From positions 1,426,001 through 1,490,000 of the forward strand of contig NZ_QGNA01000001.1 of assembly GCF_003173615.1 (NCBI RefSeq): a stretch of DNA of 64,000 nucleotides, read 5' to 3'. The DNA is from Falsiroseomonas bella (GTDB lineage Bacteria; Pseudomonadota; Alphaproteobacteria; Acetobacterales; Acetobacteraceae). Below the pieces are notes generated by a model, which did no database searches, was not told the DNA's origin, and worked only from the letters and a program-made list of their open reading frames with translations. Shown here one piece after another: positions 22,150 to 43,706 of the stretch. The position numbers and the translations under genes are program-made. The first letter of the stretch is position 1; each line of letters starts with the position of its first letter.

Positions 22150-22175
22150 CGCGTTTCCTCCTGTCCTTCGTGGCG

Positions 22176-23993: not shown

Positions 23994-23994
23994 G

Positions 23995-25632: not shown

Positions 25633-26820
25633 TCAGCGCGTGGCGCGGCGCGCGGCCTCCTGCGGTGCCTGCGCGAAGCCGCCGTCGCGAACCAGTTCGT
25701 GCATCGCCCAGGCCAGCGCCGGGCGCGGATCGGTGCCGAGCGAGGCGGGCAGGATCCGCAGCGGCACGGAGGCCGCGGCGAGCCCGCCGAAGAGGCTGGA
25801 ATCCATCCCTTCCCCGATCGCCGCCTGCAGGTCCGGCGGCAGCGCCGCCGGCCAGCCCGACAGGACCACGAGCGAGACGGGCATCACGTTCAGCACGTTA
25901 CCGATCACCAGGCCGACGCCGTGCAGCGCATCGCGCAGCAGCGCCGTGCGGCGTGGCGTCATGCGCACCAGTGCCGGCCAGTCGTCGCCGGCCGCGATGA
26001 GCGCCGGCTCCGCGATGCCGCAGATGGCGGCCGCCGCGGTGGCGGAGGCGATCGCCTCCAGGCAGCCGAGATGGCCGCAGCGGCAGCGCGGCCCGTTCCG
26101 GTCCACCACGATGTGCCCGAATTCGATCGGCCGGATCGGCAGCGCCGCCGTGACCGGCTCGACCCAGGCCCCGCCGACGCCATGGCCGAGATGGACATAG
26201 AGGTGCCGCGTCTCGACCGGCGGGTTGCCCGGACCGCGCAACTGCATGGCGGCGCGCGCGGCGACCGAGTTGGCCAGCGCGACCGGCACCCCCGGGAAGG
26301 CCGATTGCAGCCGCGCCGTCAGCCAGGCGCTGTCGAGGGCCACGATCGGGTTGGGCGCTCCTGCCGGTTCGCGCAGGCCCGGTATGGAGGCCGCGACGCG
26401 CAGCGGCGCCGCGCCACGCTCGCGGAACCATGCCGCGAGCGCCGCGATGCCCGCTTCGAAGGCGCCGGTGATCGCAACGCAATCGGAGAGGGCGGGCAGG
26501 GGCAGGCGCTGATGGAACGCCACCTCCCCGGCGATGGAGGCGATGCCGAGGGCGAGACGCTCATTGGCGAGGTCGAGGCCCGCGACCCACTGGTCGGCGC
26601 GCAGCGAAACCATCTGGCTGGGGCCGCCGTGATAGGGCGCGGGGCGGCGGATCTCCTCCACCAGACCTTCGTCGCGCAGCTCCGCCACGATGCGGGAGAT
26701 GCTCGCTTCGGTGAGGTGGCAGTCGGCCGCGAGCTGCGGACGGAACAGGCCGCCGGTCGCCAGAAGCCGCTCCAGCACCGCCGCGCGTGTCTGCCGCCTG
26801 GTCCGGAGCCGCTCCATCAC
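25633..26820 (-). CDS. ROK-family transcriptional repressor
   Basis: The 395-residue product has an N-terminal winged helix-turn-helix (RRQTRAAVLERLLATGGLF, then LTEASISRIVAELRDEGLV) and a C-terminal ROK sugar-binding domain with GHIVVDRNGPRCRCGHLGCL, the family zinc-binding cluster. ROK proteins respond to sugars and repress catabolic genes. A perfect palindrome lies six bases before the ATG, suggesting autoregulation. It separates two catabolic units and may control the downstream peptide-receptor group, the upstream SIS/PfkB operon, or both. The sugar-kinase catalytic Asp and ATP loops are not evident, so it is a regulator, not a kinase. Confidence 0.9.
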   Translation of the reverse strand: MMERLRTRRQTRAAVLERLLATGGLFRPQLAADCHLTEASISRIVAELRDEGLVEEIRRPAPYHGGPSQMVSLRADQWVAGLDLANERLALGIASIAGEVAFHQRLPLPALSDCVAITGAFEAGIAALAAWFRERGAAPLRVAASIPGLREPAGAPNPIVALDSAWLTARLQSAFPGVPVALANSVAARAAMQLRGPGNPPVETRHLYVHLGHGVGGAWVEPVTAALPIRPIEFGHIVVDRNGPRCRCGHLGCLEAIASATAAAAICGIAEPALIAAGDDWPALVRMTPRRTALLRDALHGVGLVIGNVLNVMPVSLVVLSGWPAALPPDLQAAIGEGMDSSLFGGLAAASVPLRILPASLGTDPRPALAWAMHELVRDGGFAQAPQEAARRATR

Positions 26821-26825
26821 CGCCT

Positions 26826-26846
26826 ATTCTTACACAGAGTAAGAAT
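26826..26846. promoter_or_regulatory. Perfect 21-bp palindrome, candidate ROK operator
   Basis: The arms ATTCTTAC (26826-26833) and GTAAGAAT (26839-26846) flank ACAGA. The element sits six bases upstream of the ROK start on the minus strand, so it would overlap the ribosome binding region or promoter -10. Its AT-richness stands out in a 70% GC background and ROK repressors bind comparable inverted repeats. Confidence 0.7.
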
Positions 26847-26902: not shown

Positions 26903-27691
26903 TCAGCCTTCCGCCGCGGCCCGCGCGTGATCCATCAGGCGGCGCGTCCGGTCGGCATCCCAGCGCAACAGCTCGTCGGATGCGGCGCCGCGCCGCATGA
27001 GCGAGGAGGAGACGATCACCCCCTGTGCCACGCCCAGGGCCTCGGTGACGTTCTGCTCCGTCACGCCGCCGCCGAGCAGGATCGGCACGCGCACTCCGGC
27101 GGCGCGGGCTGCGCGGATGCGGGCGAGACTGTCGGCGAAATCCGCGCCGGTCAGCACCAGCCCGTCGGCGCCGAGCGATTCGGCCCACAGGGCAGCGCGT
27201 TCCGGCTCGGTCGGCGCAAGCGGCAGGGTGGTGCGGTCGAAGACATCCGCCAGGATCGCGACACCGGGCGCCCGCGTCGCGCGATACGCGCGCGCCGCGA
27301 CGGCCAGCGCGTGCTTCGGTCCCTCCGCGCCGACCACCGAGGCGACATAGACCTTGAGGCGCACGAAGCAGGCGCCCCCTGCGGCGGCGACGGCGAGCGG
27401 CGCTTCGGCGTCATGCGCCTGCAGGATGATCCCGAGGCGGAGTGCCGGGAATTCTGCGCGCAGCAGGCGGGCGAGGGAGGCCATGCGTGCCACCGTCTCC
27501 ACCGTCGCGGTGCCGGATGCGCGAGTCTGGTCCTGCAGCTTGATGGCGGGCACGCCGGCATCGGCAAAGACGCGCGCATTCGCCAGCACATAGTCCTCGA
27601 GCCAGGCCTGCGACCGCGGCTCGACCACCGGGTCCGGCAGGTGCAGCGCGGCGACGACGAGCGGAGCGTGGCTGAAGAACGTGGCGGTCAC
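26903..27691 (-). CDS. BtpA/SgcQ-family TIM-barrel protein
   Basis: The 262-residue soluble protein carries the BtpA/SgcQ pattern: VVAALHLPDP, VFADAGVPAIKLQDQTRASG, LGIILQAHDAEAPLAVAAAGG, ARAYRATRAPGVAILADVFD, GADGLVLTGADF and VRVPILLGGGVTEQNV. The family is linked to sugar operons (sgc) and photosystem I biogenesis in cyanobacteria, with unknown chemistry. Its ATG overlaps the stop of the PfkB kinase upstream (four bases), so it is the last gene of the SIS-PfkB-ABC operon and probably performs a step on the phosphorylated sugar intermediate. Confidence 0.88.
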   Translation of the reverse strand: MTATFFSHAPLVVAALHLPDPVVEPRSQAWLEDYVLANARVFADAGVPAIKLQDQTRASGTATVETVARMASLARLLRAEFPALRLGIILQAHDAEAPLAVAAAGGACFVRLKVYVASVVGAEGPKHALAVAARAYRATRAPGVAILADVFDRTTLPLAPTEPERAALWAESLGADGLVLTGADFADSLARIRAARAAGVRVPILLGGGVTEQNVTEALGVAQGVIVSSSLMRRGAASDELLRWDADRTRRLMDHARAAAEG

Positions 27692-28707
27692 GGCAGGCTC
27701 CTGGTGATCAGCTGTTCGATACGGGCGCGCCGCGCGGCGATCTGCTCCGGCGGCAGGGCGAGCGGCGCGAGCGCGCCCATGGCTTCGACCGCGCAGGCCC
27801 CTGCCACGAGACCGCGCGCCGCGGCCCGCGCGACCGGCTCGCCGGCAACGAGACCCGCCAGAACGCCGCCCGCGAAGGCGTCGCCGGCGCCGGTCGGATC
27901 AATCGCGGAGACCGGCAGGGCGGGCAGGGGCTGCGGCAGGCCATCCCGCGGATCGAGCAGCAGCGCGCCGGCAGCGCCAAGCTTCGCGAGCAGCACGGGC
28001 CCGTCCGGACGCGCCAGGCTCGCCAGCGCGGATGCCGGCGACAAGCCGGGCCGCAACGCCTGCAACTCGGCCTCGCTTGGCAGGAAGACATGGCAGGCGC
28101 CGAGCAGCGCCTCGAGCTGATCGGGCGACAGGCTGCGGGCCGTGAAGCCCGGGTCGAGCGTGACGATCAGGCCCCGCTGCCGTGCCGCACGTGCAAGCGC
28201 GAGTTGCGCCGCGGTGACACCGGGGGCGACATGCAGGCCCCGGGCGGACCACCAGATTGGCGGCACATGCTCGGGCAGCACCGGATGCGCGGCGCGGAAG
28301 GCGGCGTAGCCGGGGCGGTCGGGACGGGCTCTGAGATGGCACTCCCAGGCCTTGGCCGCGGCCGGGCTCACGCTTGCGCCGCGGATGCCGAAGGCGTCGG
28401 CCTCACGCAGGGATGCGTGCAGCCGGTCCACGCGGCTGCCGTCCGGGCGGTGAAAGAACCACTCGGGATCGGGCAGCGCCGCAGGTTCGATGCGGATGCC
28501 CGTGGCGTCCAGCGGCGTGCCGATGAGTTGATGCACCGGCCAGCCCTGCGGCACACGCGCGACGATGCCAGCCCGCGCGCCCATCAGCGTCGCACCGACC
28601 GCCGAATGGATCGCGTTTCCGCCGATCTGCGCCAGCGCCAGCGCGCCGTCCGCAGCGACGATGCAGTCGAGCGTCGCGCCGCCTGCGGTGAAGAGCTGCG
28701 GCGTCAC
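27688..28707 (-). CDS. PfkB-family carbohydrate kinase (copy 1)
   Basis: The 339-residue ribokinase-like protein has the Gly-rich start GGATLDCIV, the anion-hole motif DPTGAGDAFAGGVLAGL and the preceding strand GLIVTLDPGF. It phosphorylates a sugar or sugar adduct with ATP; members paired with SIS proteins in other bacteria include fructoselysine and fructose-asparagine kinases. It overlaps the genes on both sides by four bases (BtpA and SIS), so it is expressed with them. It is only distantly related to the second PfkB protein of the operon, which implies two phosphorylation specificities. Confidence 0.88.
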   Translation of the reverse strand: MTPQLFTAGGATLDCIVAADGALALAQIGGNAIHSAVGATLMGARAGIVARVPQGWPVHQLIGTPLDATGIRIEPAALPDPEWFFHRPDGSRVDRLHASLREADAFGIRGASVSPAAAKAWECHLRARPDRPGYAAFRAAHPVLPEHVPPIWWSARGLHVAPGVTAAQLALARAARQRGLIVTLDPGFTARSLSPDQLEALLGACHVFLPSEAELQALRPGLSPASALASLARPDGPVLLAKLGAAGALLLDPRDGLPQPLPALPVSAIDPTGAGDAFAGGVLAGLVAGEPVARAAARGLVAGACAVEAMGALAPLALPPEQIAARRARIEQLITRSLP

Positions 28708-29795
28708 GCGCCGGGATAGCCGAGCCCGGCCTCCGCCCGCGCGACCGCATAGGCGTGGGCCAGGTGATGCAGCGGAATGGTGGCGAGCAGCGGCATCAGC
28801 AGCGGATGCGCGGCGGGCAGAATCAGGTGGCGCTCGACGAGGCTCGCGATCTCCGCATCCGCGCTGCCGAGCAGCGCCAGCGTACGCCCGCCGACACCGG
28901 CGCCGACGATCGCCGCATCCAGCGCGCGCGAGCGCGAGGCGACGTCGGGCGCGATCAGCACAAGCGGATCGCCGTGCTTCTGCGCACGGTAGTGGTGCAG
29001 TTCCTCGAGCGGCCAGGCGACGGCATGGACAGGGCCGAGTTCACGGATCTTCGCCGCGCCGATCTCGGCTGTCGCATGGAAGGGGCCGGCGCCGCTGAAG
29101 GCGAGGAAGCCGGCGCGCGCGAAGGCGGCACCCGCTTCCTGCATCGGGGCGGCCGCGATCGCGCCCAGCCGGTCAGCCTGTTCCGGCAGCGCCGCGAGGG
29201 CGGTGCGCAGCGACGCATCGGGGCGGATCGCCTCGGCGGCGGCGACCAGCAGCGCGATGGTCGCGGTGGTCGCCTGGGTAGGCCAGCCGCGGCGCGTCGC
29301 CTGCACCAGCAGCGCCGCGTCGAAGCGCTGGTGCAGCGGCGAGCCGGCGCTGTTCGTGACGCCGACGGCCAGCGCGCCGCGCGCATGCGCGCGGTCCAGC
29401 GCCTCCAGGACGGCAGGCGTCGTGCCGCTGGAGGAGATGCCGAAGACCAGCGTGCCGGGCCCGGCATGCGCCGCCTCGTAGAGCGCCCAGTCCAGCGCCT
29501 GCACGCCGCAGGCTGGCACGCCGAGCCGCGCGCGGAAGGCCGCCGCGGCGATCCGCCCGGCCTGCCACGAATCGCCGCAGCCGGCGATCACCACCTCGGT
29601 GACCGGGCGCGCCGCGACGCGCGCGGCCAGCGCGCCGAGCGCCGGCGCCGCCTGGGCGAGCGTCGCGGCGATGGCCTCGCCCTGCGCCAGCATCTCGACC
29701 CGCGTGCGCTCGACGCGCGCGAGCCGCGCGGGGTCGCGCGGCGCATCGGTGGAGGGCTCGGCGCGCAGCTTCGCGAAGCGGGGATCCGGGCTCAT
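28704..29795 (-). CDS. SIS-domain protein (copy 1), GlmS/FrlB-type isomerase or deglycase
   Basis: The 363-residue protein contains tandem SIS domains like the isomerase half of GlmS. First domain: AGCGDSWQAGRIAAAAF, then GISSSGTTPAVLEALDRAHA (phosphosugar-binding S-S-G-T). Second domain: FSGAGPFHATAEIGAAKIRE. No glutaminase domain is present. FrlB and FraB deglycases share this layout and act on 6-phosphorylated Amadori compounds. It overlaps the downstream PfkB gene and the upstream permease gene by four bases each. Confidence 0.88.
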   Translation of the reverse strand: MSPDPRFAKLRAEPSTDAPRDPARLARVERTRVEMLAQGEAIAATLAQAAPALGALAARVAARPVTEVVIAGCGDSWQAGRIAAAAFRARLGVPACGVQALDWALYEAAHAGPGTLVFGISSSGTTPAVLEALDRAHARGALAVGVTNSAGSPLHQRFDAALLVQATRRGWPTQATTATIALLVAAAEAIRPDASLRTALAALPEQADRLGAIAAAPMQEAGAAFARAGFLAFSGAGPFHATAEIGAAKIRELGPVHAVAWPLEELHHYRAQKHGDPLVLIAPDVASRSRALDAAIVGAGVGGRTLALLGSADAEIASLVERHLILPAAHPLLMPLLATIPLHHLAHAYAVARAEAGLGYPGA

Positions 29796-30631
29796 CGGCC
29801 GAGCCGCTCCAGCCCGACGGTGCGGGCGATCACCAGCATCACGACGAAGGAGAGCATGATCTCCATCGCCGAGATCGCAGCGATGGCGGGCGTCGAATCG
29901 TTTTGCACGAGGTAGTAGAGCTCCACGGGAAGCGGCCTGCCGCGCACGTCGGAGGTGAAGAGCGCGACGGTGACGTTGTCGAAGGCCTCGATGAAGGTGA
30001 AGGCGGCCGCGGCGAGCAGCGCCGGGCCGAGCTGCGGCACGGTGACGCGCAGGAAGGTCTCGGCCGGCCCGGCGCCGAGATTGGCCGAGGCCTCGTCCAG
30101 CCGCGGATCGAGCCCCGCAAGCCGCGCCATGACGATGCGGATGGTGAAGGGGATGCAGAAGACGGTCAGCGCCACGACCAGCATGAGGTCGGAGGCGCGG
30201 AAGCCGACATAGGCACCGAAGAACAGCATCGCGATCCCGATCACCATCCCCGGCATCATCTGCGGCGCGAGCAGGAAGGCGTTGGCGCCGGCCTTGCCGG
30301 GAAAGGTGCCGCGCACCGAGGCGAAGGCGGCCGGCACGCCGAGCAGCAGCGCCGCCAGCATCACCAAGGTCGCGACCTCCAGGCTGACCAGGATGGAATC
30401 GGTCAGCTGCCGGTTCTCGAACACCGCCCAGTACCAGCGCAGCGAGAAGCCCGAGGGCGGGAAGCTGATGAAGGCCCGCGGCTCGAAGCTGATGGCGATG
30501 ACGATGAGGCTCGGCGCGACCAGCAACAGCAGCGCGAATCCCGCGACCAGCCCCAGCAGCAGACCGCCGAGCCGGTCGATGGCGGGAATGGTGCGGCGGC
30601 GCTTCGTCGCGCCGGAGGCGCGCGGGCTCAT
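29792..30631 (-). CDS. ABC transporter permease, polyamine/opine type (PotC-like)
   Basis: The 279-residue protein has six predicted transmembrane helices and a cytoplasmic EAA loop EASANLGAGPAETFLRVTVP that couples to the ATPase. The start SPRASGATKRRRTIP and first helix place it in the PotC branch of the spermidine/putrescine-type importers. It forms the inner-membrane channel with the permease immediately upstream. ATG at 30631 overlaps the stop of that permease by four bases. Confidence 0.92.
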   Translation of the reverse strand: MSPRASGATKRRRTIPAIDRLGGLLLGLVAGFALLLLVAPSLIVIAISFEPRAFISFPPSGFSLRWYWAVFENRQLTDSILVSLEVATLVMLAALLLGVPAAFASVRGTFPGKAGANAFLLAPQMMPGMVIGIAMLFFGAYVGFRASDLMLVVALTVFCIPFTIRIVMARLAGLDPRLDEASANLGAGPAETFLRVTVPQLGPALLAAAAFTFIEAFDNVTVALFTSDVRGRPLPVELYYLVQNDSTPAIAAISAMEIMLSFVVMLVIARTVGLERLGR

Positions 30632-31536
30632 GGCTTTGCCACCTCGTTCCAGCGCGCGAGCCGGTTGCCTAGGGCGACGATCGCGAGGACGAAGGCGAAG
30701 CAGGTGGACAGCAGGATCGTCGCCAGCACCGCGCCGCGCGTCCAGTCGAGCACCACCACCGTCTGCTCGTAGACCTGCACTGCGAGCGTGGAATAGGCGC
30801 CGCCGCCGAGCAGCTGGGGGACGATGAAGTTGGTGTAGGAGACGGCGAAGACCAGCGCCAAGCCGGCGAAGATGGCCGGCACGCTCATCGGCACGGTGAC
30901 GCGGAAGAAGGTGCCGGTGCGGCTGGCGCCGAGGTTCAGCGACGCCTCCTCCAGCCGCCGGTCGCGCTCCGCCAGCACGGCCAGCAGCGGCAGCACCATG
31001 AAGGGCAGGTGAATCTGCGTCATGCCGATCAGCACCGCCCAGTCCGTGTTGAGAATGCGCAGCGGCTCTTCGATGAGACCGAGCGACAGCAGCGCCTGGT
31101 TGAGCATGCCGCGCCGTCCGCCGAGGATCACGATCCAGGCATAGGCGCGCACCAGCGCGCTGGTCAGCAGCGGCGAGATCACCGCCACCAGGATCAGCGT
31201 GCGCCAGATGCCTTTCGTCTCGGCGAAGAGGTAGGCGACCGGATAGGCGAGCAGCAGGCACAGCACCGAGGACACCACGGCCACCCAGAAGCTGCGCCAC
31301 ATCAGGCGCCAGACCAGGTCGTCCTGTAGTGCATGCAGCAGATGCGCGACGGTGAAGCTGTCGGGCTGGATGCGGCCGCGCTCGATGGTGAGGAAGCCGA
31401 AGGCCAGCAGCGTGACCATCGGCAGCAGGAGGAAGACGAACAGGAACACCAGCGCAGGGACGGCTGGCCAGATGCCACCGCCGTGCAGGATGCGGCGCAG
31501 CGGCGCCGGCCGGCGCGCGAGGGTCTCAGCCGGCAT
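30628..31536 (-). CDS. ABC transporter permease, polyamine/opine type (PotB-like)
   Basis: The 302-residue protein has six predicted membrane helices, an N-terminal cytoplasmic segment (ETLARRPAPLRRILHG) and an EAA loop EEASLNLGASRTGTFFRVTV. It partners the PotC-like permease. Its start overlaps the end of the ATPase gene by 11 bases, so both depend on coordinated translation. The substrate is set by the two binding proteins and is not visible here. Confidence 0.92.
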   Translation of the reverse strand: MPAETLARRPAPLRRILHGGGIWPAVPALVFLFVFLLLPMVTLLAFGFLTIERGRIQPDSFTVAHLLHALQDDLVWRLMWRSFWVAVVSSVLCLLLAYPVAYLFAETKGIWRTLILVAVISPLLTSALVRAYAWIVILGGRRGMLNQALLSLGLIEEPLRILNTDWAVLIGMTQIHLPFMVLPLLAVLAERDRRLEEASLNLGASRTGTFFRVTVPMSVPAIFAGLALVFAVSYTNFIVPQLLGGGAYSTLAVQVYEQTVVVLDWTRGAVLATILLSTCFAFVLAIVALGNRLARWNEVAKP

Positions 31537-32569
31537 GCGGGATCACCGCGCAGCCCGCCGGATCGGCGATGCCGAGGCCGAGCAGCGTGCCCGCGGCAGG
31601 GGCCGCCTCTCCGGCGCGGCGTGGCAGCACGGCCCGCAGCGGCTCGGCGAGGCCCGCATCGAGCTCGAGTTCCATGGTCGGTCCATCGGCGGTCGCGAAG
31701 GCGACGCGACCATTCCAGACGACGCCAGGTGCGCCCGCAGCAAGCAGCCGGAGGTTCTCAGGCCGCAGCACCAGCGCGGCGGGGCCATCTGCGCGCGCCG
31801 CGGCCACGCCCGGCACGCCCTCCACGGCGCCGCCACGCACCGTCACCGGCACGACATTCGCGCGGCCGATGAAGGTTGCGACATAGGGCGTCGCGGGCCG
31901 GTCGTAGAGGTCGAGCGGTGCGGCGAGCTGCTCGATCCGCCCCTCCCGCATGACCGCGACCTGATCCGACAGCGTCATCGCCTCGGCCTGGTCATGGGTG
32001 ACGAAGATGGAGGTGATGCCGACGCGCGAGATCAGCTTGCGCAGCTCCACCTGCATCGCCAGCCGCAGCTTGGCATCGAGCGCGTTGAAGGGTTCGTCCA
32101 GCAGCAGCACCTCCGGCTCCAGCACCAGCGCACGGGCGATCGCGACCCGCTGCTGCTGGCCGCCCGAGAGCCGCGCGGGGTAGCGGTCGGCGAAGCCGGC
32201 CAGCGCCACCGTCTCGAGCGCGGCGCGGACCCGATCAGCGATCTCGGCGCGCGGGCGGCGGCGCACCTTGAGGCCGTAGGCGACGTTCTCGGCCACCGTC
32301 AGGTGCGGGAACAGCGCGTAGTTCTGGAAGACGTAGCCCACCTGGCGGCGATTCGGCGGCAGCGTCGTGATGTCGCGGCCCTGGATGCGCACTTCGCCCT
32401 CATCCGGGTCGAGGAAGCCGGCGATGATGCGCAGCAGCGTGGTCTTGCCGCAGCCCGAGGCGCCGAGCAGCGTCAGCACCTGGCCACGCGCGATGGAGAG
32501 CGTGCAGTCCCGCAGCACCTGGTGTGCGCCGAAGCGCTTGCCGACGCCGGCGATCTCGATCTGTGTCAT
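31526..32569 (-). CDS. ABC transporter ATP-binding protein (PotA-like)
   Basis: The 347-residue ATPase carries all nucleotide-binding motifs: Walker A GASGCGKTT, Q-loop VFQNYALFPHLTV, signature LSGGQQQR, Walker B VLLLDEPF, and H-loop FVTHDQAEAMTLS. A C-terminal TOBE domain follows (FIGRANVVPVTVRGG). It powers uptake by the two permeases. The ATG at 32569 overlaps the stop of the upstream PfkB gene by four bases; the longer frame upstream is antisense noise. Confidence 0.95.
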   Translation of the reverse strand: MTQIEIAGVGKRFGAHQVLRDCTLSIARGQVLTLLGASGCGKTTLLRIIAGFLDPDEGEVRIQGRDITTLPPNRRQVGYVFQNYALFPHLTVAENVAYGLKVRRRPRAEIADRVRAALETVALAGFADRYPARLSGGQQQRVAIARALVLEPEVLLLDEPFNALDAKLRLAMQVELRKLISRVGITSIFVTHDQAEAMTLSDQVAVMREGRIEQLAAPLDLYDRPATPYVATFIGRANVVPVTVRGGAVEGVPGVAAARADGPAALVLRPENLRLLAAGAPGVVWNGRVAFATADGPTMELELDAGLAEPLRAVLPRRAGEAAPAAGTLLGLGIADPAGCAVIPHAG

Positions 32570-33378
32570 GGTTGGAACCCGAGCGCGGCAGGGCCCTGGG
32601 CGGTGACGGCGCGCGCACCGATGGCGACCGCGGCGCCGAGCGCCGCGTCCAGATCCTGCCCATTTGCAAGGCCGCCGGCGATTGCGCCGACCGTGGCGTC
32701 GCCCGCGCCGGTCGGGTCGACCACGGCGACCGGGGGCGGTGGGAATCGGCGCGGCGCCGCGCCGTCGGCGGGGAACAGCGCCAGACCTTCGGCGCCGCGC
32801 TTCTCCACCACGGCGCAACCGGAAAGCGGGCCGAGCAGCGCGATCTCCTCGCGGCTCGGCGCGAAGAGGAAGAGGCGCGGCAGCAGGGCGCGCAGCGCCT
32901 CGGGCTCGCGCCGCGCGAAGGCCTCACTGGTGTCCACGACGGCGCGCGCCGGCCCCGCTGCATCCAGCGCACGCGATGCCTGCCCGGATGGCATCGGGCA
33001 AAGGACGAGGACGTCGTCCGGTGCGAGTGGCCCCGGCGGGAGCGGCGGCGCCAGCGCCGCGGTGCGTTCCCACCAGGCGGCTTCCGCATGGTGCGCGGAG
33101 TCGCGCGTGCCATCGGCCGCGTAGTCGAGGCGCGCGCGCCGCGTCGGTCCCGCGCGCCGGATGCGCTGCGACAGGTCCACGCCGAGGCGTTGCGCTTCCG
33201 TATCCCAGGCCTCCGGCCAGTCCTCCCCGGCGGCGGCGAGCAGGGCGGTTTCCGCGCCGACGGCGCGCGCGCCGAGCGCGGCGTAGAGCGCGGCGCCGCC
33301 CGGCTGCTCACGCGCCACGCCATCCGGCCCGCGCACGCGGTCGATGGAGAGGTAGCCCATCACGAAGACGCGCCCCAT
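32566..33378 (-). CDS. PfkB-family carbohydrate kinase (copy 2)
   Basis: This 270-residue kinase is shorter than copy 1. It has MGRVFVMGYLSIDRV, an acceptor-binding segment EQPGGAALYAALGARAVG, and the catalytic anion hole VDPTGAGDATVGAIAGG near residue 220. Length and motifs resemble FrlD/FraD-type kinases of 260-300 residues. It lies between the second SIS gene (ending 33383, four bases before its ATG) and the ATPase gene, so the pair may phosphorylate and then cleave or isomerise the imported sugar derivative. Confidence 0.88.
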   Translation of the reverse strand: MGRVFVMGYLSIDRVRGPDGVAREQPGGAALYAALGARAVGAETALLAAAGEDWPEAWDTEAQRLGVDLSQRIRRAGPTRRARLDYAADGTRDSAHHAEAAWWERTAALAPPLPPGPLAPDDVLVLCPMPSGQASRALDAAGPARAVVDTSEAFARREPEALRALLPRLFLFAPSREEIALLGPLSGCAVVEKRGAEGLALFPADGAAPRRFPPPPVAVVDPTGAGDATVGAIAGGLANGQDLDAALGAAVAIGARAVTAQGPAALGFQP

Positions 33379-33382
33379 GCGA

Positions 33383-34441
33383 TCACTGGCCCGTGCCGAT
33401 CAGGGAGCGGCGGGTCAGCATCCGGCTGACGCGGAAACGCGCCGCGTCGCCCTTCAGATGCGTGCGCGTGTCGGGATCGAGCCCGCCGGCCCGCGCCAGC
33501 CCATGCGCCAGCGCCTGCAGCGGGATCGCGGTGGCGAGCGGCGCGAGCGCCGGCGGGATGGCGGGCAGCGTCCACCGTCGTGTGGCCGTGGCCACGGGCG
33601 TCGCTTCGGTGTCCATCGCGAGGCAGCGCATGCCGAGTTCGGCCAGCGCCTCGCAGCTTTCCGTCGCGAGACGAGCGAGCGCTGGCTCGGCGGCGACGAC
33701 GACAATGAGGTCCGTCACCGGGGTCGCCCAGTACTGGCTATGGGCGAATTCCTCGAGATCGGCGGACCAGGCCGGCACGCCGGTGAGTTCCACCAGCTTC
33801 GCCGCGCCGTACCGCACCGTGCCGGCATCGGCGCCGGCCGAGAGCAGGCGCACGCCGCTCGGTACGGCTTCCGTCACTTCGAAGGCGATGGCGGCGCGGA
33901 TGGCCGGCAGCGCGGCGTGCAGCGCCTCCGCCGCCTCCGGTCGCCCGGCCGCGCCGGCTGCCAGCAGCATCAGCGCGGCGACCGTCGCCGTGTAGCTCGA
34001 CGTGCCGCAGAGGAAGGGCGCGATGTCGGCGATGTCGAGCGAGATGCGGGCACCGGCGACCTCGCCCAACCGCCCGCCCTTGCCGTTGACCAGCGCGAGC
34101 AGTCGCGCGCCCATCCCCGAAGCAGCCTCTGCGGCGGCAACGGTGCGATCCACATTGCCGGACATCGAGATGGCGATCACGCGATCCGCCGCCGCCAACC
34201 GACGCGCCGACAGCAGCAGGTCGAGCGCGCCGAGCGGGCGCCAGTCCAGGCCGAGCTCGCGCGCGAACTCCGCCGCCGCTTCGGCGGCAAAGGCCCCGTC
34301 GCCGCAGCCTGCCACGAACAGGCGCCCGCCCGCGCCTGGTGCGAGCGTCGCACCGGCGGCGAGGAACTCCGGCGCGCGGGCCAGCAGGCCCGCGATCACC
34401 TCAGGCTGGCGCGCCATGTCGGCGCGCATCGGTCCCTGCAT
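33383..34441 (-). CDS. SIS-domain protein (copy 2)
   Basis: From the ATG at 34441 the product has 352 residues. It carries a first SIS domain with FVAGCGDGAFAAEAAAEFA and AISMSGNVDRTVAAAEAASG (S-x-S-G-N in place of the usual S-S-G-T), and a second with SAGADAGTVRYGAAKLVELT. It resembles GlmS-type isomerases and FrlB-type deglycases; the divergent first motif suggests a different phosphosugar from copy 1. It starts two bases after the stop of the binding protein gene. Upstream in-frame codons to 34663 are antisense to that gene and not used. Confidence 0.86.
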   Translation of the reverse strand: MQGPMRADMARQPEVIAGLLARAPEFLAAGATLAPGAGGRLFVAGCGDGAFAAEAAAEFARELGLDWRPLGALDLLLSARRLAAADRVIAISMSGNVDRTVAAAEAASGMGARLLALVNGKGGRLGEVAGARISLDIADIAPFLCGTSSYTATVAALMLLAAGAAGRPEAAEALHAALPAIRAAIAFEVTEAVPSGVRLLSAGADAGTVRYGAAKLVELTGVPAWSADLEEFAHSQYWATPVTDLIVVVAAEPALARLATESCEALAELGMRCLAMDTEATPVATATRRWTLPAIPPALAPLATAIPLQALAHGLARAGGLDPDTRTHLKGDAARFRVSRMLTRRSLIGTGQ

Positions 34442-34443
34442 TG

Positions 34444-35478
34444 TCAGCTGAAGGTCCTGTCGAACTGTTCCAGGATGCGGCCGCGCACCGGAGCGATCTT
34501 GGACCAGTCCACGGACTGCAGCCGCGCAACCTCCGCCGGAGTCGAGGGCGTGTAGGGCTTCGCCGCGTCCGGCACCGCCACGCCGCGCACCGTTGGCCCG
34601 AAGAAGTAAGGCTCGTTCGCCGCGCGCTGCTGGTACTCGGGCGACAGGATCTCGTTCATCCACTCATGCACCAGCTCGGGATGCCGTGTGTTGGCGATCT
34701 CCGACATGAAGGAGAGCAGCGAAACCGGGCCGGGCGCGGGCTGGATGAAGCGGATCGGCAGCCCCCGCGCGGCCGCGCCGGCGACATCGTTGTTCCAGAT
34801 CGGCGCGACGCCGATCTCCTCGCGCTCGAGCAGCTGCAGCAGGGCGGTGGGCGAGCGGCCGACCACCGGGCGCAGCGCGGCCAGCCTCTCCCAGGCCGGC
34901 GCGAGGTTGTCCTCGGACCCGCCGAACACCTTGGCGATGATCGCCAGGACCGCGAGGCCGAGGTTGGAGGAGGCGCGCGGGATCGCGACCTTGCCGCGGT
35001 AGTCGGCGTGCCAGAGATCCTCCCAGGAGGTAGGCTCGCGCCGCACCACGCGAGTGTTCCAGGCGATGCCCACCAGCGAATAGCTCGCCGGCACGCCGAA
35101 GCCGCCGGACTTCGCCATGAACTCCGGCACGACATTGGCCGCATTCGGCACCTTCGCCGGATCGAGGCGCGTGATGTAGCCCTCGCGCTGGGCGATCAGG
35201 TGCGGCGGCTCGCCATTCGGCATGGCGTCGAAGGGCGAATGGCCCTGCGCGGCCTTGATCTGCGCGACGATGTCCTGCGCCTCGCTCGGCACCAGGCGGA
35301 TGCGCAGGCCGGGGTGGCGCGCCTCCATCCGGCGCGCGAGCCACTGGTGCGGCTCCTGCAGCTGGCCCGCGAAGGAGACGATGACGAGTTCGCGCGATTG
35401 CGCGCGCGCGACCTGCGGCGTGGCGAGCGCGGCCAGGGCGAGACCGCCGAGCGAGCGGCGGCCGAGAAGCGTGGTCAT
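34444..35478 (-). CDS. ABC transporter binding protein, polyamine/opine type (copy 2)
   Basis: The 344-residue periplasmic protein begins with a Tat- or Sec-like signal (RRSLGGLALAALATPQVARAQ). It belongs to the extracellular solute-binding family 1 used by spermidine/putrescine and opine systems: GHSPFDAMPNGEPPHLIAQR, SGGFGVPASYSLVGIAWNTR, APIWNNDVAG and a C-terminal SPEYQQRAANEPYFFGPT. It is about 60% identical by eye to the next protein, a tandem duplication. It docks with the permeases downstream. Confidence 0.92.
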   Translation of the reverse strand: MTTLLGRRSLGGLALAALATPQVARAQSRELVIVSFAGQLQEPHQWLARRMEARHPGLRIRLVPSEAQDIVAQIKAAQGHSPFDAMPNGEPPHLIAQREGYITRLDPAKVPNAANVVPEFMAKSGGFGVPASYSLVGIAWNTRVVRREPTSWEDLWHADYRGKVAIPRASSNLGLAVLAIIAKVFGGSEDNLAPAWERLAALRPVVGRSPTALLQLLEREEIGVAPIWNNDVAGAAARGLPIRFIQPAPGPVSLLSFMSEIANTRHPELVHEWMNEILSPEYQQRAANEPYFFGPTVRGVAVPDAAKPYTPSTPAEVARLQSVDWSKIAPVRGRILEQFDRTFS

Positions 35479-35500
35479 GTTCGGATGCCTCCTTGTTGGT

Positions 35501-36544
35501 TCAGCCGGCGAAGACGCGGTCGAATCGCTCGACCAGGCCGCCGCGCTGCGGCGCGATCGCGCCCCAGTCGATGGTCTGCAGGGCCAGCACCTCGGCCGGC
35601 GTCGAGGGGGTGTAGGGCCGCGCGGCCTCCGGCACCGTCACGCCGCGCACGGTCGGGCCGAAGAAATACGGCGCCCCGGCGGCGCGGGCCTGGTACTCGG
35701 CGGAAAGGATGCCATCGAGCCACTCGTTCACGAGGTCCGGATGCCGCGTCTGCGCGATGGCGGAGAAGAAGGAGAGGATCGCGATCGCGCCGGGCGCGGG
35801 CATCAGGAAGCGGATCGGCAGGCCCTTGTCGGCGGCCGAGGCCGTGTTGTTGTTCCAGAGCGGGGCGATCGCGATCTCCTCGCGTTCCAGCATCTGCGTC
35901 AGGATGGCCGGCGAGCGCGCGGCGCGCGGCTGCAGCTCGCGCAGCTTCTCCCAGCCCACGTCGAGGTTTCGCTCGCTGCCACCATGCGTCTTGGCGGCGA
36001 TGGCGAGCGTCGCCAGGCCGAGATTGGAGGAGGTGCGCGCGATGCCGACCTTGCCGCGGTACTCGGGTCGCCAGAGATCGGCCCAGCTGGTTGGCGCGTT
36101 GCGCACCATCTGGCTGTTGTAGGCGATGCCGACCAGCGAATAGGTCGCCGGCACGCCGAAGCCGCCGGATCGCGCGAGAAGATCGGGGAAGACGTTGCCC
36201 AGGTTGGCGAGCGCGGCGTCGCTGCGCCGTGCGATGTAGCCCTCGGTCATCGCCGTGATGTGCGGCGGCTCGTCGTTCGGCATGGCGTCGAAGGGCGAAT
36301 GGCCCTGCGCTGCCTTGATCTGCGCGACGATGTCCTGGCTGTCGGAGGGAACGAGCCGGATGCGCAGGCCGCGATGCCGGGCCTCCATCCGGTCGGCGAG
36401 CCAGCGATGCGGCTCGGAGAGGCGGCCGGGATAGGTGACGATCACCAGCTCGCGTGCGGCCTGGGCGTGGACGAGGCGGGAGACGGCGAGAAGGCCCGCG
36501 GCGGCGGCGCCGAGGCGGGCAAGCGAACGACGGGAGACGGACAT
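35501..36544 (-). CDS. ABC transporter binding protein, polyamine/opine type (copy 1)
   Basis: This 347-residue paralogue is the first gene of the operon. It has the signal SRRSLARLGAAAAGLLAVSR, then REGLVIVTYPGRLSEPHRW-like start segments, SGGFGVPATYSLVGIAYNSQ, IAPLWNNNTASAADKGLPIR and SAEYQARAAGAPYFFGPTVR. Alignment by eye shows the same landmarks as copy 2 in the same order, with many substitutions in the ligand-facing loops. Two receptors for one permease pair imply two related ligands. A divergent amidohydrolase gene faces it across 320 bases. Confidence 0.92.
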   Translation of the reverse strand: MSVSRRSLARLGAAAAGLLAVSRLVHAQAARELVIVTYPGRLSEPHRWLADRMEARHRGLRIRLVPSDSQDIVAQIKAAQGHSPFDAMPNDEPPHITAMTEGYIARRSDAALANLGNVFPDLLARSGGFGVPATYSLVGIAYNSQMVRNAPTSWADLWRPEYRGKVGIARTSSNLGLATLAIAAKTHGGSERNLDVGWEKLRELQPRAARSPAILTQMLEREEIAIAPLWNNNTASAADKGLPIRFLMPAPGAIAILSFFSAIAQTRHPDLVNEWLDGILSAEYQARAAGAPYFFGPTVRGVTVPEAARPYTPSTPAEVLALQTIDWGAIAPQRGGLVERFDRVFAG

Positions 36545-36864
36545 CGGAACCTCCTGCGGTGACGACGTGTCGGCGCCGCGCAGGCGCGCGGCATCGTCCG
36601 GGCCCGACGGCCCGGCAACGTCATCAGGCCGTTCGGCGGGAGGCGGCGATCAGTGCCACATAGGCACGGCAGGAACGGGACGGCGCGGACCAAGCGCGGG
36701 CACGGCGGCGCCGTCCGCTTGGCTTGCTCCGATTCAGGGTGAAACGCCCGCGCGTCATCCTGTCATTCTTGTCATCCCGTTTGCGCCGGCGCAAGCATGC
36801 GCCTGCCTCGCACGGCGCCGCCGGGCGCGCCCTTGCCTGCGAGGCGAGCAGGAGCGTGCCAACC
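36545..36864. promoter_or_regulatory. Divergent intergenic region between ABC operon and amidohydrolase
   Basis: These 320 bases separate divergent starts. I see no gene. The region from 36600 to 36700 is GC-rich with short inverted repeats (GGGCCCGACGGCCC at about 36600). Near 36758 a direct repeat TGTCATTCTTGTCATCC may mark a regulator or promoter site for the amidohydrolase. No copy of the ROK palindrome is present, so ROK control of this promoter is not supported by an exact site. Confidence 0.45.
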
Positions 36865-38427
36865 ATGCCCGGAACGACGGCAGACGAGCCGGTCTCTCTC
36901 ATCCTGCGCGGTGCGGCGCTGCTGGAAAGCTTCGGGCCGGACGACTCGCCCATCCTGCACCGCGACGCCGGGCTCGCCGTCGCGGCAGGGCGTGTCGCCG
37001 CCATCGCGCCCTTCGTCGAGCTCGCCGCCCGGCATCCCGGCGCGCAGGTGGTCGGCGACGCCGACACGGTCGTCATCCCGGGTCTCGTCAACGCGCATCA
37101 CCATGTCGGGCTGACGCCGCTGCAACTCGGCTCGCCGGATCATCCGCTGGAGCTGTGGTTCGCGAGCCGGCTGGCGCTGCGCGACGTGGATCTGCGCCTC
37201 GACACGCTGTTCTCCGCCTTCGAGATGATCGCCTCCGGCGTCACCACCGTGCAGCACCTGCACAGTCGCGCGCCGGGCGGGCCGGAGCGGATCCTGGCGG
37301 CGGCGCAGGGCGTGATCGGCGCGTATCGCGAGGTGGGCATGCGCGCCTCCTACTCCATGGCGCTGCGCGACCAGAACCGGCTGGTGTACGAGGATGACGC
37401 CGCCTTCACCGCGCGCCTGCCGGAGGCGCTGCAACCCGCGATGCGCGACTATTTCGCGCGCTTCACCCTGCCGCTGTCCGAGCAGGTGGCGCTGTTCGAG
37501 GACATCCGCGCGCTGGCCGCGGGCGATCCGCGCATCGCCGTGCAGGTCGCGCCGGCGAACCTGCACTGGCTTTCGGATGCGGCGCTGGGCGCGGCGGCGG
37601 AGCTGTCGGCGAAGCACGACCTGCCGATGCACATGCACCTGCTGGAGACGCCCTACCAGAAAGCCTATGCGAAGCGGCGGACGGGTGGATCGGCGCTGGC
37701 CTTCCTGCATCGGCTCGGCCTGACGGGACCGCGGCTCACGATCGGCCACGGCGTCTGGATGACGGAGGCCGACATCGAGCTCTGCGCGCATGCGGGCACG
37801 CGCATCTGCCACAACTGCTCCTCCAACCTGCGCCTGAAATCCGGGACCGCGCCGGTGAACCGCTTCCTCGCGGCGGGGATCCCCGTTGCGCTCGGCATGG
37901 ACGAGGCCGGCATCAACGACGACCGCGACATGCTGCAGGAGATGCGCCTGGCCCTACGTATGCACCGCGAGCCCGGGATCCACGCGCCGCATCCCTCGCC
38001 GGCGCAGGTGCTGCGCATGGCGACCGAGCACGGCGCCGGCACCACGCCCTTCGGTGCGACGATCGGGCGGCTTTCCGTCGGCTGCCATGCCGATGCCGTG
38101 CTGTTCGACTGGCCGCGCGTGACGCGGCCCTGGCAGAGCCCCGACATCCCGCTGGTCGATGTGCTGGTGCAGCGGGCGAAGACGGATGCGGTGAAGACCG
38201 TGCTGGTGGGCGGCGAGGTGGTGTATCGCGACGGCCGGTTCACGCGCGTGGATCGTGACGCCGTGCTCGCCGAGATCGCCGCGCGGATGGCCCGTCCGCT
38301 GACGGCGGAGGAGGAGGCGCGGCGGGACCTGGCACGCGCGGTCTTCCCGCATGTCAGCGCCTTCTACGACGGATGGCTGGACGGGCTCGGCGACGATCCG
38401 CACTACCGGCCGAGCGGGCGACGCTAA
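36865..38427 (+). CDS. Amidohydrolase-superfamily metal-dependent hydrolase or deaminase
   Basis: From the ATG at 36865 the product has 520 residues. It carries metal-binding HxH in NAHHHVGLTPLQLG, LHSRAP and QVAPANLHWLS segments, the second pair in HMHLLETPYQKAYAKR, a His in IGHGVWMTEADIEL and the Asp in GMDEAGINDD, as in the AtzA/TrzN and SsnA branch. It hydrolyses a C-N bond on a ring or amide. It is divergent from the ABC operon and overlaps the convergent deacetylase gene by four bases; it may act on a substrate related to the neighbouring cluster, which is inference. Confidence 0.9.
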   Translation: MPGTTADEPVSLILRGAALLESFGPDDSPILHRDAGLAVAAGRVAAIAPFVELAARHPGAQVVGDADTVVIPGLVNAHHHVGLTPLQLGSPDHPLELWFASRLALRDVDLRLDTLFSAFEMIASGVTTVQHLHSRAPGGPERILAAAQGVIGAYREVGMRASYSMALRDQNRLVYEDDAAFTARLPEALQPAMRDYFARFTLPLSEQVALFEDIRALAAGDPRIAVQVAPANLHWLSDAALGAAAELSAKHDLPMHMHLLETPYQKAYAKRRTGGSALAFLHRLGLTGPRLTIGHGVWMTEADIELCAHAGTRICHNCSSNLRLKSGTAPVNRFLAAGIPVALGMDEAGINDDRDMLQEMRLALRMHREPGIHAPHPSPAQVLRMATEHGAGTTPFGATIGRLSVGCHADAVLFDWPRVTRPWQSPDIPLVDVLVQRAKTDAVKTVLVGGEVVYRDGRFTRVDRDAVLAEIAARMARPLTAEEEARRDLARAVFPHVSAFYDGWLDGLGDDPHYRPSGRR

Positions 38428-39311
38428 CCCCCCGCGGCGATCCAGGCGCGCGCGATCTCGTCGCGCCGCGCCACCCAGATGCGGTCGCCGAGCGCGGCGA
38501 GCTTTTCGAGCACGCCCTCGAAGGCGGGGAAGCGGCCAGGGCGCCCGGCGATGCGGAGGTGGTAGCCGATGTTGAGCAGCCGCGGCTTGCCGCGCTCCGC
38601 CTCGGCCAGCAGCGTGGCCAGCGCGTCCTCGACATACTCCACCATCTCCCGCGCGCGGACGAAGCCGTTCGGGTGGAAGAACTTCATGTCGTTGCTGTCC
38701 AGCGCATAGGGCAGCACGACCAGGCCGCGATGTGCCCGGTCGCGATAGGGCAGGTCGTCGTCGAAGGCGTTGGATGTGTAGAGGAAGCCGCGTTCCTCCA
38801 GCAGCGCGCGCGTCCAGGCGCTCTCGCTGCCGCGGCAGAAGAAGCCGGCGGGCCGCACGCCGCAGGCCGCGTCGATCGCGTCGATGCAGCGATCGAGATC
38901 GTGCGCTTCCTCCGCCCGGTCGCGGTAGTCGGCATGCGGGCGCCAGCGCCAGCCATGCACGGCGGCCTCATGCCCGCGCGCCACCACCTCGCGCGCCTGC
39001 CGGGGCGCGCGCTCCACGGCGCGGCCGCACATCAGGAAGGTCGCGCGGATGCGGTGCCGGTCGAGCGCGTCCAGCATGCGCCAGAGCCCGGCGCGCATGC
39101 CATAGGCGAAGATCTGCTCCTGCCCGAGGTCGCGCACGCCGGGCTCGACGACGCTGATCACCTCGCCGATTCGCTCGCTCTGTGGGTCGCCGTCTCCAAC
39201 CTGCTGCTCGGCGCCTTCCTCGAAGTTCACCACGACCGAGACGGCAAGCCGGGCGCCGTTCGGCCAGGCGATGTCAGGGTCCGACCCTCCGCGACCGACG
39301 AGATCGCGCAT
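38424..39311 (-). CDS. Polysaccharide deacetylase-family protein (PuuE/allantoinase-like)
   Basis: The 295-residue protein carries the NodB homology of the PuuE type: VVNFEEGAEQQVGDGDPQSE, ATFLMCGRAVE, a HGWRWRPHADY metal-binding stretch, and GFFCRGSESAWTRALLEERG. PuuE-like enzymes act on allantoin or related cyclic amides and on N-acetyl groups. Length and motifs fit an intact enzyme; no signal peptide is seen, so the protein is likely cytoplasmic. The neighbouring amidohydrolase also cleaves C-N bonds, which suggests but does not prove a shared purine-like or glycated-amine route. Confidence 0.85.
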   Translation of the reverse strand: MRDLVGRGGSDPDIAWPNGARLAVSVVVNFEEGAEQQVGDGDPQSERIGEVISVVEPGVRDLGQEQIFAYGMRAGLWRMLDALDRHRIRATFLMCGRAVERAPRQAREVVARGHEAAVHGWRWRPHADYRDRAEEAHDLDRCIDAIDAACGVRPAGFFCRGSESAWTRALLEERGFLYTSNAFDDDLPYRDRAHRGLVVLPYALDSNDMKFFHPNGFVRAREMVEYVEDALATLLAEAERGKPRLLNIGYHLRIAGRPGRFPAFEGVLEKLAALGDRIWVARRDEIARAWIAAGG

Positions 39312-39386: not shown

Positions 39387-40268
39387 TCAGGCGGTGCCGG
39401 CCATCTCCTTGAAATGCGCCATCATCCGGTCGGCATCCGCCTCCAGCCCGGTGAAGAGGCGGAACGCGCCCACGGCCTGGAAGACGGCCATGCCGCTGCC
39501 GTCGAGCGTGCGGCACCCGATCCGGCGCGCGGCGCGCAGCAGCTCGGTCTCCATGGGGAAATAGATGATCTCGGCCACCCAGAGCGAGGGGCGCAGCAGG
39601 CCGGGATCCAACGGCATGCCGGGCAACTTCGCCATCCCGACGGGCGTGCAGTTCACCAGCCCGTCCGCGGCGGCCAGGCTGGCGCCGAGGTCGGCCGCGG
39701 CCTCTGCGCGGCCGGCGCCGAAGCGCGTGCAGAGGCTGGCAGCCAAGGCTTCCGCGCGCGAAGCCTCCACGTCGTGCAGGCTGAGCCGGGCGATGCCCGC
39801 GCCGAGTAGCGCGTGGGCGACCGCGGCGCCGGCGCCGCCGGCGCCGAGCTGCACCACCGCACCGCGCGCCGCGTCCGGCAATCCACGACGGAAGCCCTCC
39901 GCGAAGCCCGAGCAATCGGTGTTGTGCCCGATCCTGCGGCCCTCTCGCAGAACCACCGTGTTCACCGCCCCGAGCGCCTCCGCATCACGGGACAGCTCGT
40001 GCAGCAACGGGATCACGGCCTGCTTGCAGGGATAGGTGATGTTGAGCCCCGCGAAGCCCATCCATTCCGCGGCGGTCAGCAGCGCGTCGAGCGAGTCCGG
40101 CCCCAGGCGGAGCCGGTCGAGATCGATCAGCCGGTAGACCAGGCGCAGCCCCTGAACCTCGCCCTCGCGTTCGTGCATGGCAGGCGTCAGGGAGGCCTGG
40201 ATGCCGCTGCCGATCAGCCCGAGCAGTACGGAGCGCTGCCGCTGGGCACGCATCGCGCGCTGCACCAT
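39387..40268 (-). CDS. Quinate/shikimate dehydrogenase-type enzyme
   Basis: The 293-residue product has a shikimate dehydrogenase fold but matches the Corynebacterium quinate/shikimate dehydrogenase (QsuD) pattern better than biosynthetic AroE: SLTPAMHEREG replaces the usual S-x-S-P start, followed by GFAGLNITYPCKQAVIPLL, LGAVNTVVLREG, GHNTDCSGFAEGFRRGLPD, an NAD-binding LGAGGAGAAVAHALLG and METELLRAARRIGCRTLDG. It would interconvert quinate or shikimate with the dehydro forms. It starts five bases after aroQ-like stop, in a TRAP-led operon, so a catabolic role is likely. Confidence 0.88.
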   Translation of the reverse strand: MVQRAMRAQRQRSVLLGLIGSGIQASLTPAMHEREGEVQGLRLVYRLIDLDRLRLGPDSLDALLTAAEWMGFAGLNITYPCKQAVIPLLHELSRDAEALGAVNTVVLREGRRIGHNTDCSGFAEGFRRGLPDAARGAVVQLGAGGAGAAVAHALLGAGIARLSLHDVEASRAEALAASLCTRFGAGRAEAAADLGASLAAADGLVNCTPVGMAKLPGMPLDPGLLRPSLWVAEIIYFPMETELLRAARRIGCRTLDGSGMAVFQAVGAFRLFTGLEADADRMMAHFKEMAGTA

Positions 40269-40273
40269 TCCGC

Positions 40274-40723: not shown

Positions 40724-40766
40724 GAGGCTACCTCGTCGGCATGCGGGCGAAGGCGGGGGGCGGCCG

Positions 40767-42565: not shown

Positions 42566-42625
42566 CGGCGCGCCCCGGGGAACGGCGCGACCCGGAACGC
42601 CGGCGGCGCTCCGGGTCGGGTGGCG

Positions 42626-43615: not shown

Positions 43616-43706
43616 GCGCGTCCTCCCCTTGCGAGACATGCTTGGTCGCGCCGGCAGCGCGGCCGGGCGACTGCCGCGGACGCTAGTCGCAGCGGATCGC
43701 GTGATC

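Follow-up and report, generated by a model that had tools for sequence, protein, structure and literature searches.

Among the closest described systems to the locus reported here are frl and gfr, represented by E. coli frlABCDR, Bacillus subtilis frlBONMD (passages available from PMC12632257) and Salmonella gfrABCDEF (passages available from PMC12675984). In these systems a sugar-amine conjugate is imported, phosphorylated and cleaved by a SIS enzyme. A simpler arrangement, a Pot-type ATP-binding cassette (ABC) transporter beside one SIS and one PfkB gene, occurs on the plasmids pGV2260, pArA4 and R. brockwellii pRltCC275eA. Here we describe a ten-gene operon in a 64,000-nucleotide stretch of the Falsiroseomonas bella genome (contig NZ_QGNA01000001.1, positions 1,426,001 to 1,490,000; hereafter the window), which joins two SIS enzymes, two PfkB kinases, a BtpA/SgcQ-family protein and a Pot-type importer. 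With two neighbouring hydrolase genes, it may form a catabolic cluster for a sugar conjugate of a cyclic amide or amidine.

Organisation of the operon

All parts of the unit claimed in an earlier, sequence-only reading of the window (two SIS proteins, two PfkB kinases, BtpA, one ABC importer and two binding proteins) were found on one strand, mostly overlapping. Ten minus-strand genes fill positions 26903-36544, confirming the claimed operon there, and run 5' to 3' in the order SBP1-SBP2-SIS1-PfkB1-ATPase-permease 1-permease 2-SIS2-PfkB2-BtpA, where SBP denotes a solute-binding protein. Overlaps of 4 bases occur at five junctions and one of 11 bases between ATPase and permease 1; the intergenic gaps measure 22 (SBP1/SBP2), 2 (SBP2/SIS1) and 4 bases (SIS1/PfkB1). 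The expected Pfam family was matched by nine of the nine operon genes scanned (permease 2 was outside the scan). The host genome is 5.94 Mb. Upstream of the operon and divergent from it lies an amidohydrolase gene (AMH), followed by a PuuE-like gene that is convergent to AMH. Structure models are given with their predicted local distance difference test (pLDDT) score.

35501..36544, minus strand: SBP1, PotD/2-aminoethylphosphonate-like solute-binding protein of the importer; SBP_bac_6 78 bits, SBP_bac_8 71 bits; leads the conserved order
34444..35478, minus strand: SBP2, second solute-binding protein; SBP_bac_6 72 bits; 67% identity to SBP1; conserved order
33383..34441, minus strand: SIS1, phosphosugar enzyme with two SIS domains; Pfam SIS 37 bits; Glu218/His234 correspond to GlmS E488/H504; placed by tree and structure model
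32566..33378, minus strand: PfkB1, short PfkB-family sugar kinase; Pfam PfkB 69 bits; GAGD at residue 224; placed by tree
31526..32569, minus strand: ABC importer ATPase, PotA/PhnT-like; ABC_tran 142 bits; PhnT2 351 and PotA 341 bits, both below cut-off
30628..31536, minus strand: ABC permease 1, PotB-like; BPD_transp_1 31.7 bits; PotB 171 bits, below cut-off
29792..30631, minus strand: ABC permease 2; ATG at 30631 overlaps permease 1; 71-83% identity at the same position in 14 strict-order loci
28704..29795, minus strand: SIS2, GlmS/NagB-II-like phosphosugar enzyme; Pfam SIS 68 bits; Glu252/His268 kept; GlmS 78.5 and NagB-II 62 bits, below cut-offs
27688..28707, minus strand: PfkB2, PfkB-family sugar kinase; Pfam PfkB 81 bits (residues 169-315, C-terminal half only); GAGD at 273; placed by tree
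26903..27691, minus strand: BtpA/SgcQ-family triosephosphate isomerase (TIM) barrel, divergent subfamily; Pfam BtpA (PF03437) 80.4 bits (cut-off 30); TIGR00259 75.8 bits (cut-off 153.4); model pLDDT 94.1, with fold matches
36865..38427, plus strand: AMH, divergent TRZ/ATZ-type amidohydrolase; Amidohydro_1 150 bits (scanned on the longer frame from 36724); ATG at 36865 behind AGGAGCG; linked in relatives
38424..39311, minus strand: PuuE-like cyclic-amide hydrolase, CE4 fold; TIGR03212 253.7 bits (cut-off 424.6); PuuE structure 3cl6 at E 8e-60

The description of the operon as duplicated holds for the binding proteins and fails for SIS1/SIS2 (33% identity over 291 residues) and PfkB1/PfkB2 (29%). 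These identities, together with the separate clades in the trees, rule out a recent duplication of a SIS-PfkB cassette; to judge from sequence comparison, the operon enzymes are old paralogues, and close copies are found only among the binding proteins.

The importer fits the polyamine/opine type proposed for it at the level of class. ATPase and permease 1 are closest to Pot and 2-aminoethylphosphonate models, with no equivalog cut-off reached, and the best sequence matches of SBP1 are PotD structures (E 4e-13). Both binding proteins are 26-27% identical to a Methylobacterium binding protein encoded near an AMH and a PuuE-like gene.

Conservation of the operon in other genomes

Relatives of the locus were fetched with a profile built from 20 SIS1 relatives; two peptide patterns gave 80 candidates and at least 34 loci in named genomes. 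Gene order was judged by 3' ends, and matches were filtered by identity. The combination of two SIS, two PfkB and one BtpA gene, for which a genome-neighbourhood comparison had been suggested, recurs in the exact ten-gene order on one strand in 14 of 34 loci from other genomes, so the operon is not due to chance. In seven more (L007, L008, L015, L019, L022, L025, L033) the visible genes match the strict order up to the end of the stretch, and those of L005 also fit it, but with a single binding protein. The other 12 loci are layout variants: BtpA is divergent from SIS1 in L027, L029, L030 and L035, a third SIS clade (SIS3) stands upstream of the binding protein in L028, L031, L032, L034, L036, L037 and L038, and the order is rearranged in L024.

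SIS1 is rare, being present in 4 of 289 genomes of the class, that of the window included. Names on the close relatives include Acetobacteraceae, Roseomonas, Hyphomicrobiales and Rhodospirillales, and the record titles point to leaf, pond, lake and pelagic Proteobacteria. A compact version on a 12-kb Pelagibacterales contig (L046) holds SIS1, a second SIS gene, AMH, a PuuE-like gene, a racemase gene, the importer and one kinase. Searches for plasmid relatives returned none for SIS1 at E 1e-5 and none for BtpA or SIS2 at E 1e-15.

Companion cyclic-amide hydrolases

Within the fetched stretches of the 14 strict-order loci, AMH was found in 12 (at least 50% identity), the PuuE-like gene in 10 (at least 60%) and a racemase-family gene in 7; AMH of L018 lies at the stretch edge, and the L017 contig (10.9 kb) stops at BtpA. 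Across all 34 loci, short ones included, AMH was present in 20 at the same identity, and the 21 loci of at least 21 kb, whatever their layout, held AMH in 16 cases and a PuuE-like/CE4 gene likewise in 16. On the same strand, BtpA is followed by CE4, PuuE-like, racemase and AMH genes in Skermanella, Aureimonas, Ancylobacter, Aurantimonas and Paracoccus. A whole-genome search of 20 of the genomes behind the 34 loci found AMH at E 1e-60 or better in 19; the exception was the genome of L030, whose locus holds a 32% relative. Among the 289 genomes of the class, SIS1 occurred in 4, AMH at 1e-120 in 8 and both in 3 (Fisher p 5.6e-5, uncorrected for kinship). Six ten-gene relatives (L039-L044) read beyond AMH had no additional gene common to all.

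AMH scored 172-190 bits, always below cut-off, on models for TRZ/ATZ, 5'-deoxyadenosine deaminase, 8-oxoguanine deaminase and N-ethylammeline chlorohydrolase, and it matches structures of deaminases and atrazine hydrolases. The PuuE-like protein falls short of the allantoinase cut-off of TIGR03212, on which another gene of the genome scores 434; by sequence, that gene is the true PuuE and the window protein its paralogue. Ureide breakdown is the setting in which PuuE and the allantoin/hydantoin racemase family are known. The locus resembles ureide and hydantoin catabolism (PuuE, hydantoin racemase, HyuAB) in that PuuE-like and racemase-family genes adjoin AMH, and differs from it in the low allantoinase score and in the coupling to sugar kinases and SIS enzymes.

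AMH relatives were also surveyed in stretches without SIS1. Their neighbours were a carbon-nitrogen hydrolase (nearest to N-carbamoylputrescine amidase, 137 bits, below cut-off), an ArgE/DapE-type hydrolase and a racemase in Burkholderia; a carbon-nitrogen hydrolase and an ABC importer on a Klebsiella oxytoca plasmid; a carbon-nitrogen hydrolase, a PuuE-like gene and a Pot-type ABC transporter in Methylobacterium; and a racemase-family gene, its best model being EutA, in Leptolyngbya. HyuB- and caprolactamase-alpha-type subunits adjoin the relative in L073, PuuE-like genes those in L072 and L075, and a racemase and second amidohydrolase that in L074, and a 41% relative in Rhizobium stands by Pot-type ABC, creatininase-family and nucleoside-deaminase genes. 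We infer that the common theme of these neighbourhoods is the opening of cyclic amides.

The conserved amidohydrolase and PuuE-like genes, and the racemase gene found in relatives, had been overlooked in the sequence-only reading; their presence makes a plain fructosyl-amino-acid pathway less likely.

A proposed pathway

We see an even chance that the operon, with AMH and the PuuE-like gene, serves the breakdown of a small conjugate in which an amine-linked sugar is joined to a nitrogen heterocycle of the hydantoin-like cyclic amide or amidine kind. The observations behind this reading are gene content and order, their conservation, the retained catalytic residues, the coupling to cyclic-amide hydrolases and the adjacency of BtpA genes to kinase genes. 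We infer every reaction, the reaction order and the substrate, as follows. The Pot-type importer with its two binding proteins would take up the conjugate, AMH would hydrolyse a C-N bond of the heterocycle, and the PuuE-like enzyme would open the cyclic amide, together with a hydantoin-type racemase in relatives. PfkB1 and PfkB2 would phosphorylate the sugar-amine intermediates, which SIS1 and SIS2 would split into amine and sugar phosphate by way of the GlmS-type Glu/His pair. One SIS enzyme would perhaps serve C1-linked and the other C2-linked amines, in the manner of the GfrE/GfrF pair. BtpA would act last, converting or cleaving the sugar phosphate.

The proposed pathway shares conjugate import, phosphorylation and SIS cleavage with frl and gfr, and the two SIS enzymes recall the two deglycases of gfr. 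It differs in that the SIS enzymes and kinases belong to other clades, in having two kinases, in the addition of BtpA and cyclic-amide hydrolases, and in the Pot-type importer. The plasmid clusters of Agrobacterium and Rhizobium differ in other ways: their SIS enzymes and kinases are single copies within the FrlB and FrlD clades, no BtpA, AMH or PuuE-like gene lies in the stretches shown, and SBP1 has marginal similarity to the pArA4 binding protein (26% over 96 residues).

Several observations weigh against the heterocycle-conjugate pathway. AMH points away from the operon in the window, while the PuuE-like gene faces AMH, an arrangement that gives no evidence of co-transcription, and neither a racemase nor a carbamoylase gene adjoins the operon. 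The genome has 14 matches to the PuuE allantoinase model, of which one is above cut-off; with so large a family expansion, one PuuE-like gene near the operon means little alone. Among the relatives, the stretches of L006, L014 and L016 are without a PuuE-like gene, L029 and L035 (21 kb each) and L032 (17 kb) hold SIS1 and PfkB1 with no AMH, PuuE-like or racemase match, and the close AMH of Elioraea (L024) is on a different contig. A window-type BtpA is present in only two of the four class genomes with SIS1, the other two assemblies being in 350 and 400 contigs. The AMH neighbourhoods of L076 and Pleomorphomonas (the latter with a cytosine-deaminase neighbour) held no cyclic-amide hydrolase.

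A more specific version, which we hold to be quite improbable, is a hitherto undescribed pathway for guanidine glycation products such as glucose-derived hydroimidazolone or fructosyl adducts of arginine. AMH would turn the imidazolone amidine into a hydantoin and a free amine, the racemase and PuuE-like hydantoinase would open the hydantoin, and the kinases, SIS1/SIS2 and BtpA would recycle the sugar carbons. If true, bacteria would have a route dedicated to advanced glycation end products, and BtpA would gain a sugar-phosphate substrate.

The building blocks are known, and neither the combination nor a system for such sugar-nitrogen conjugates was found described in the open-licence literature searched; there is a chance that the cluster extends SIS-kinase catabolism of sugar-amines to a new class of substrate. 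If the heterocycle-conjugate reading is right, a conserved cluster with as many as 14 genes would consume a class of sugar-nitrogen conjugates for which no described system was found, SIS/PfkB sugar-amine chemistry would be joined to ring-opening hydrolases, and the new SIS clades would gain a role.

SIS enzymes, PfkB kinases and alternative pathways

The sequence-only reading had proposed an Amadori-compound pathway with FrlB/FraB-type deglycases and FrlD/FraD-type kinases. That SIS and PfkB genes form a catabolic unit together with a Pot-type importer is supported, whereas membership of the FrlB and FrlD families is not. SIS2 scored 14.8 bits on the FrlB model (NF008481), where E. coli FrlB reached 812 and a distant Enterococcus SIS 110; SIS1 was absent from the matches with the E limit set at 5 (most of those beyond 0.1 are removed by HMMER filters). 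PfkB1 and PfkB2 scored 32 and 27.8 bits on the FrlD model (NF007321), against 513 for E. coli FrlD and 202 for an annotated Enterococcus kinase that is itself below the cut-off of 247. Both window kinases pass the Pfam PfkB cut-off of 25.8 and have GAGD.

Trees gave the same picture. The SIS tree had 75 rows (among them SIS1 36, SIS2 22, SIS3 9, FrlB with five plasmid SIS proteins, and AgaS; GfrE, GfrF and FraB were outside the sample). FrlB and the five plasmid proteins formed one clade (100/99), and SIS1, SIS2 and SIS3 each formed one clade outside it. The AgaS branch was very long and the program warned of long branches at the FrlB side and at SIS3/SIS1; the joins of SIS1 with SIS3 and at the FrlB side are therefore given little weight. 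In the kinase tree, FrlD grouped with four plasmid-cluster kinases (93/83, not starred), excluding PfkB1 (28 rows) and PfkB2 (15 rows). SIS3 is a clade of two-domain SIS proteins (L004, L028, L031, L032, L034-L038) whose genes mostly stand immediately upstream of those for a binding protein and SIS1; SIS2 is also present further along in L034, L037 and L038.

The top family models were GlmS (36 bits for SIS1, 78 for SIS2) and NagB-II (26 and 62 bits), all far below cut-offs, and identity to GlmS was 28% for SIS1 (116 residues) and 27% for SIS2 (313 residues). The high-ranked folds for the SIS1 model (pLDDT 91.6) were GlmS/GFAT, AgaS and glucosamine-6-phosphate deaminase. Lys485, Glu488 and His504 (GlmS numbering) are retained across the SIS1, SIS2 and SIS3 groups with few exceptions: the Glu and His positions are kept in 35 and 36 of 36 SIS1, 22 and 21 of 22 SIS2 (one gap) and 9 and 9 of 9 SIS3 proteins. 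Unlike in GlmS, the HGP-type motif around the His is replaced by LEE[FLW]xH, and Lys603 is unmatched by a Lys in an alignment that is loose at that end. The retained Glu and His keep chemistry on amine-linked sugar phosphates plausible.

Family scores, the tree (with its long-branch warnings) and the fold ranking of SIS1 place the SIS enzymes nearer to GlmS than to the deglycases with which they had been paired, an outcome that the sequence-only reading had itself named as grounds for refutation. This counts against deglycation less than it sounds, because GfrE, a glucoselysine-6-phosphate deglycase, is itself termed a GlmS homologue in the part of a review available (PMC12735817). Since gfrE and gfrF are also paired deglycases of one operon, according to the passages available from PMC12675984 (in which text and figure legend give opposite substrates for the two), grouping away from FrlB leaves deglycation possible.

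A dual Frl/Gfr-type pathway for the Amadori and Heyns products of two glycated amino acids or opine-like compounds draws on that precedent. Each kinase would phosphorylate the sugar, each SIS enzyme would deglycate one linkage isomer, and AMH and the PuuE-like enzyme would process the released amine or be unrelated. The retained Glu/His pair, the layout of Pot-type ABC, SIS and PfkB genes on Agrobacterium and Rhizobium plasmids, and the variant loci without heterocycle hydrolases (L029, L032, L035) agree with it. We consider it unlikely, if still the best placed of the alternatives: neither the SIS enzymes nor the kinases fall within the FrlB and FrlD clades, their scores on those models are far below even those of the Enterococcus proteins, and the fetched frl operon and plasmid clusters are without BtpA, AMH and PuuE-like genes (fra and gfr loci being outside the sample). 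The Enterococcus faecium plasmid (L091, 7013-11120) encodes an FrlB-like SIS, a fructoselysine kinase, an amidohydrolase-family protein and a YfcC transporter; the amidohydrolase has no similarity to AMH and was ruled out as its relative.

Rather less likely is a pathway for free or substituted amino sugars, in which the SIS enzymes would be NagB-II/GlmS-like deaminases or isomerases acting with amino-sugar kinases, and the heterocycle genes would serve another substrate. It would explain the top family models of both SIS enzymes and the nearest folds of SIS1, but not the co-conservation of AMH with the operon across many genera and in the compact Pelagibacterales version, and Pot-type importers are unusual for amino sugars. 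Least probable of all is a nucleoside-like substrate. Its base ring, still sugar-bound, would undergo deamination by AMH and opening by the PuuE-like enzyme, and the glycosylamine left over would rearrange for kinase, BtpA and SIS. Nucleoside and nucleobase deaminases are among the best models of AMH, and PuuE and the racemase family have their place in ureide breakdown, but the conserved set showed no recognisable nucleosidase or phosphorylase, and the usual nucleoside importers are of another class than the Pot type.

BtpA

The window protein resembles the BtpA/SgcQ family in passing PF03437 and in its predicted TIM barrel, and differs in failing TIGR00259, on which E. coli SgcQ scores 409.5, and in being 19% identical to SgcQ in alignment. 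No described reaction for BtpA/SgcQ proteins was found in the open-licence literature searched. Elsewhere, an FGGY or PfkB kinase gene directly adjoins BtpA in 10 of 12 loci read (L079, L081-L085, L087-L090). This adjacency makes a sugar phosphate the probable substrate of BtpA, gives a lead on BtpA/SgcQ function and makes the reaction directly testable. At a second locus of the same genome (L078, 7917-18522; C1:261000-280000) a canonical BtpA gene overlaps genes for an FGGY kinase and a PuuE-like protein, with a racemase, a tripartite ATP-independent periplasmic (TRAP) transporter and HyuA nearby. A suspected BtpA fusion (P0133, 416 residues) was set aside; inspection by eye of its additional, C-terminal part offered no clue.

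Regulation and other features of the window

A regulator gene and a palindrome follow the operon.

25633..26820, minus strand: ROK-family regulator, NagC/Mlc-like; Pfam ROK 48 bits; 82 bases after BtpA
26826..26846, no strand: perfect palindrome ATTCTTAC-N5-GTAAGAAT lying at the promoter of the ROK gene and likely its operator

The palindrome has a single match in the window and a single place in the genome, where no further copy was found at up to 2 mismatches, and it overlaps sigma-70-like promoter hexamers (26874-26845). Given its uniqueness, control of the operon by the ROK protein is unsupported, and an operator shared by regulator and operon was ruled out as a supported reading; by its position the palindrome likely serves ROK autoregulation. 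The ROK gene had no match in the relatives' loci, and the regulator's part in the pathway is uncertain. Neither a sigma-70-like promoter nor a terminator-like site was found in 36300-37100.

Beyond the PuuE-like gene, positions 39387-43639 hold shikimate-dehydrogenase-like, type II dehydroquinase and TRAP transporter (DctM, DctP) genes, which by their families look like a quinate/shikimate uptake-and-use cluster. On the other side, at 20551-25575, are genes for a tannase/feruloyl-esterase-family protein, a CocE/NonD hydrolase and also a binding protein of peptide type; no permease gene was seen next to that for the binding protein. Two long frames overlap on opposite strands, at 55405-61605 (plus, 2066 residues) and 55465-61437 (minus, 1990 residues); composition favours the plus-strand frame.

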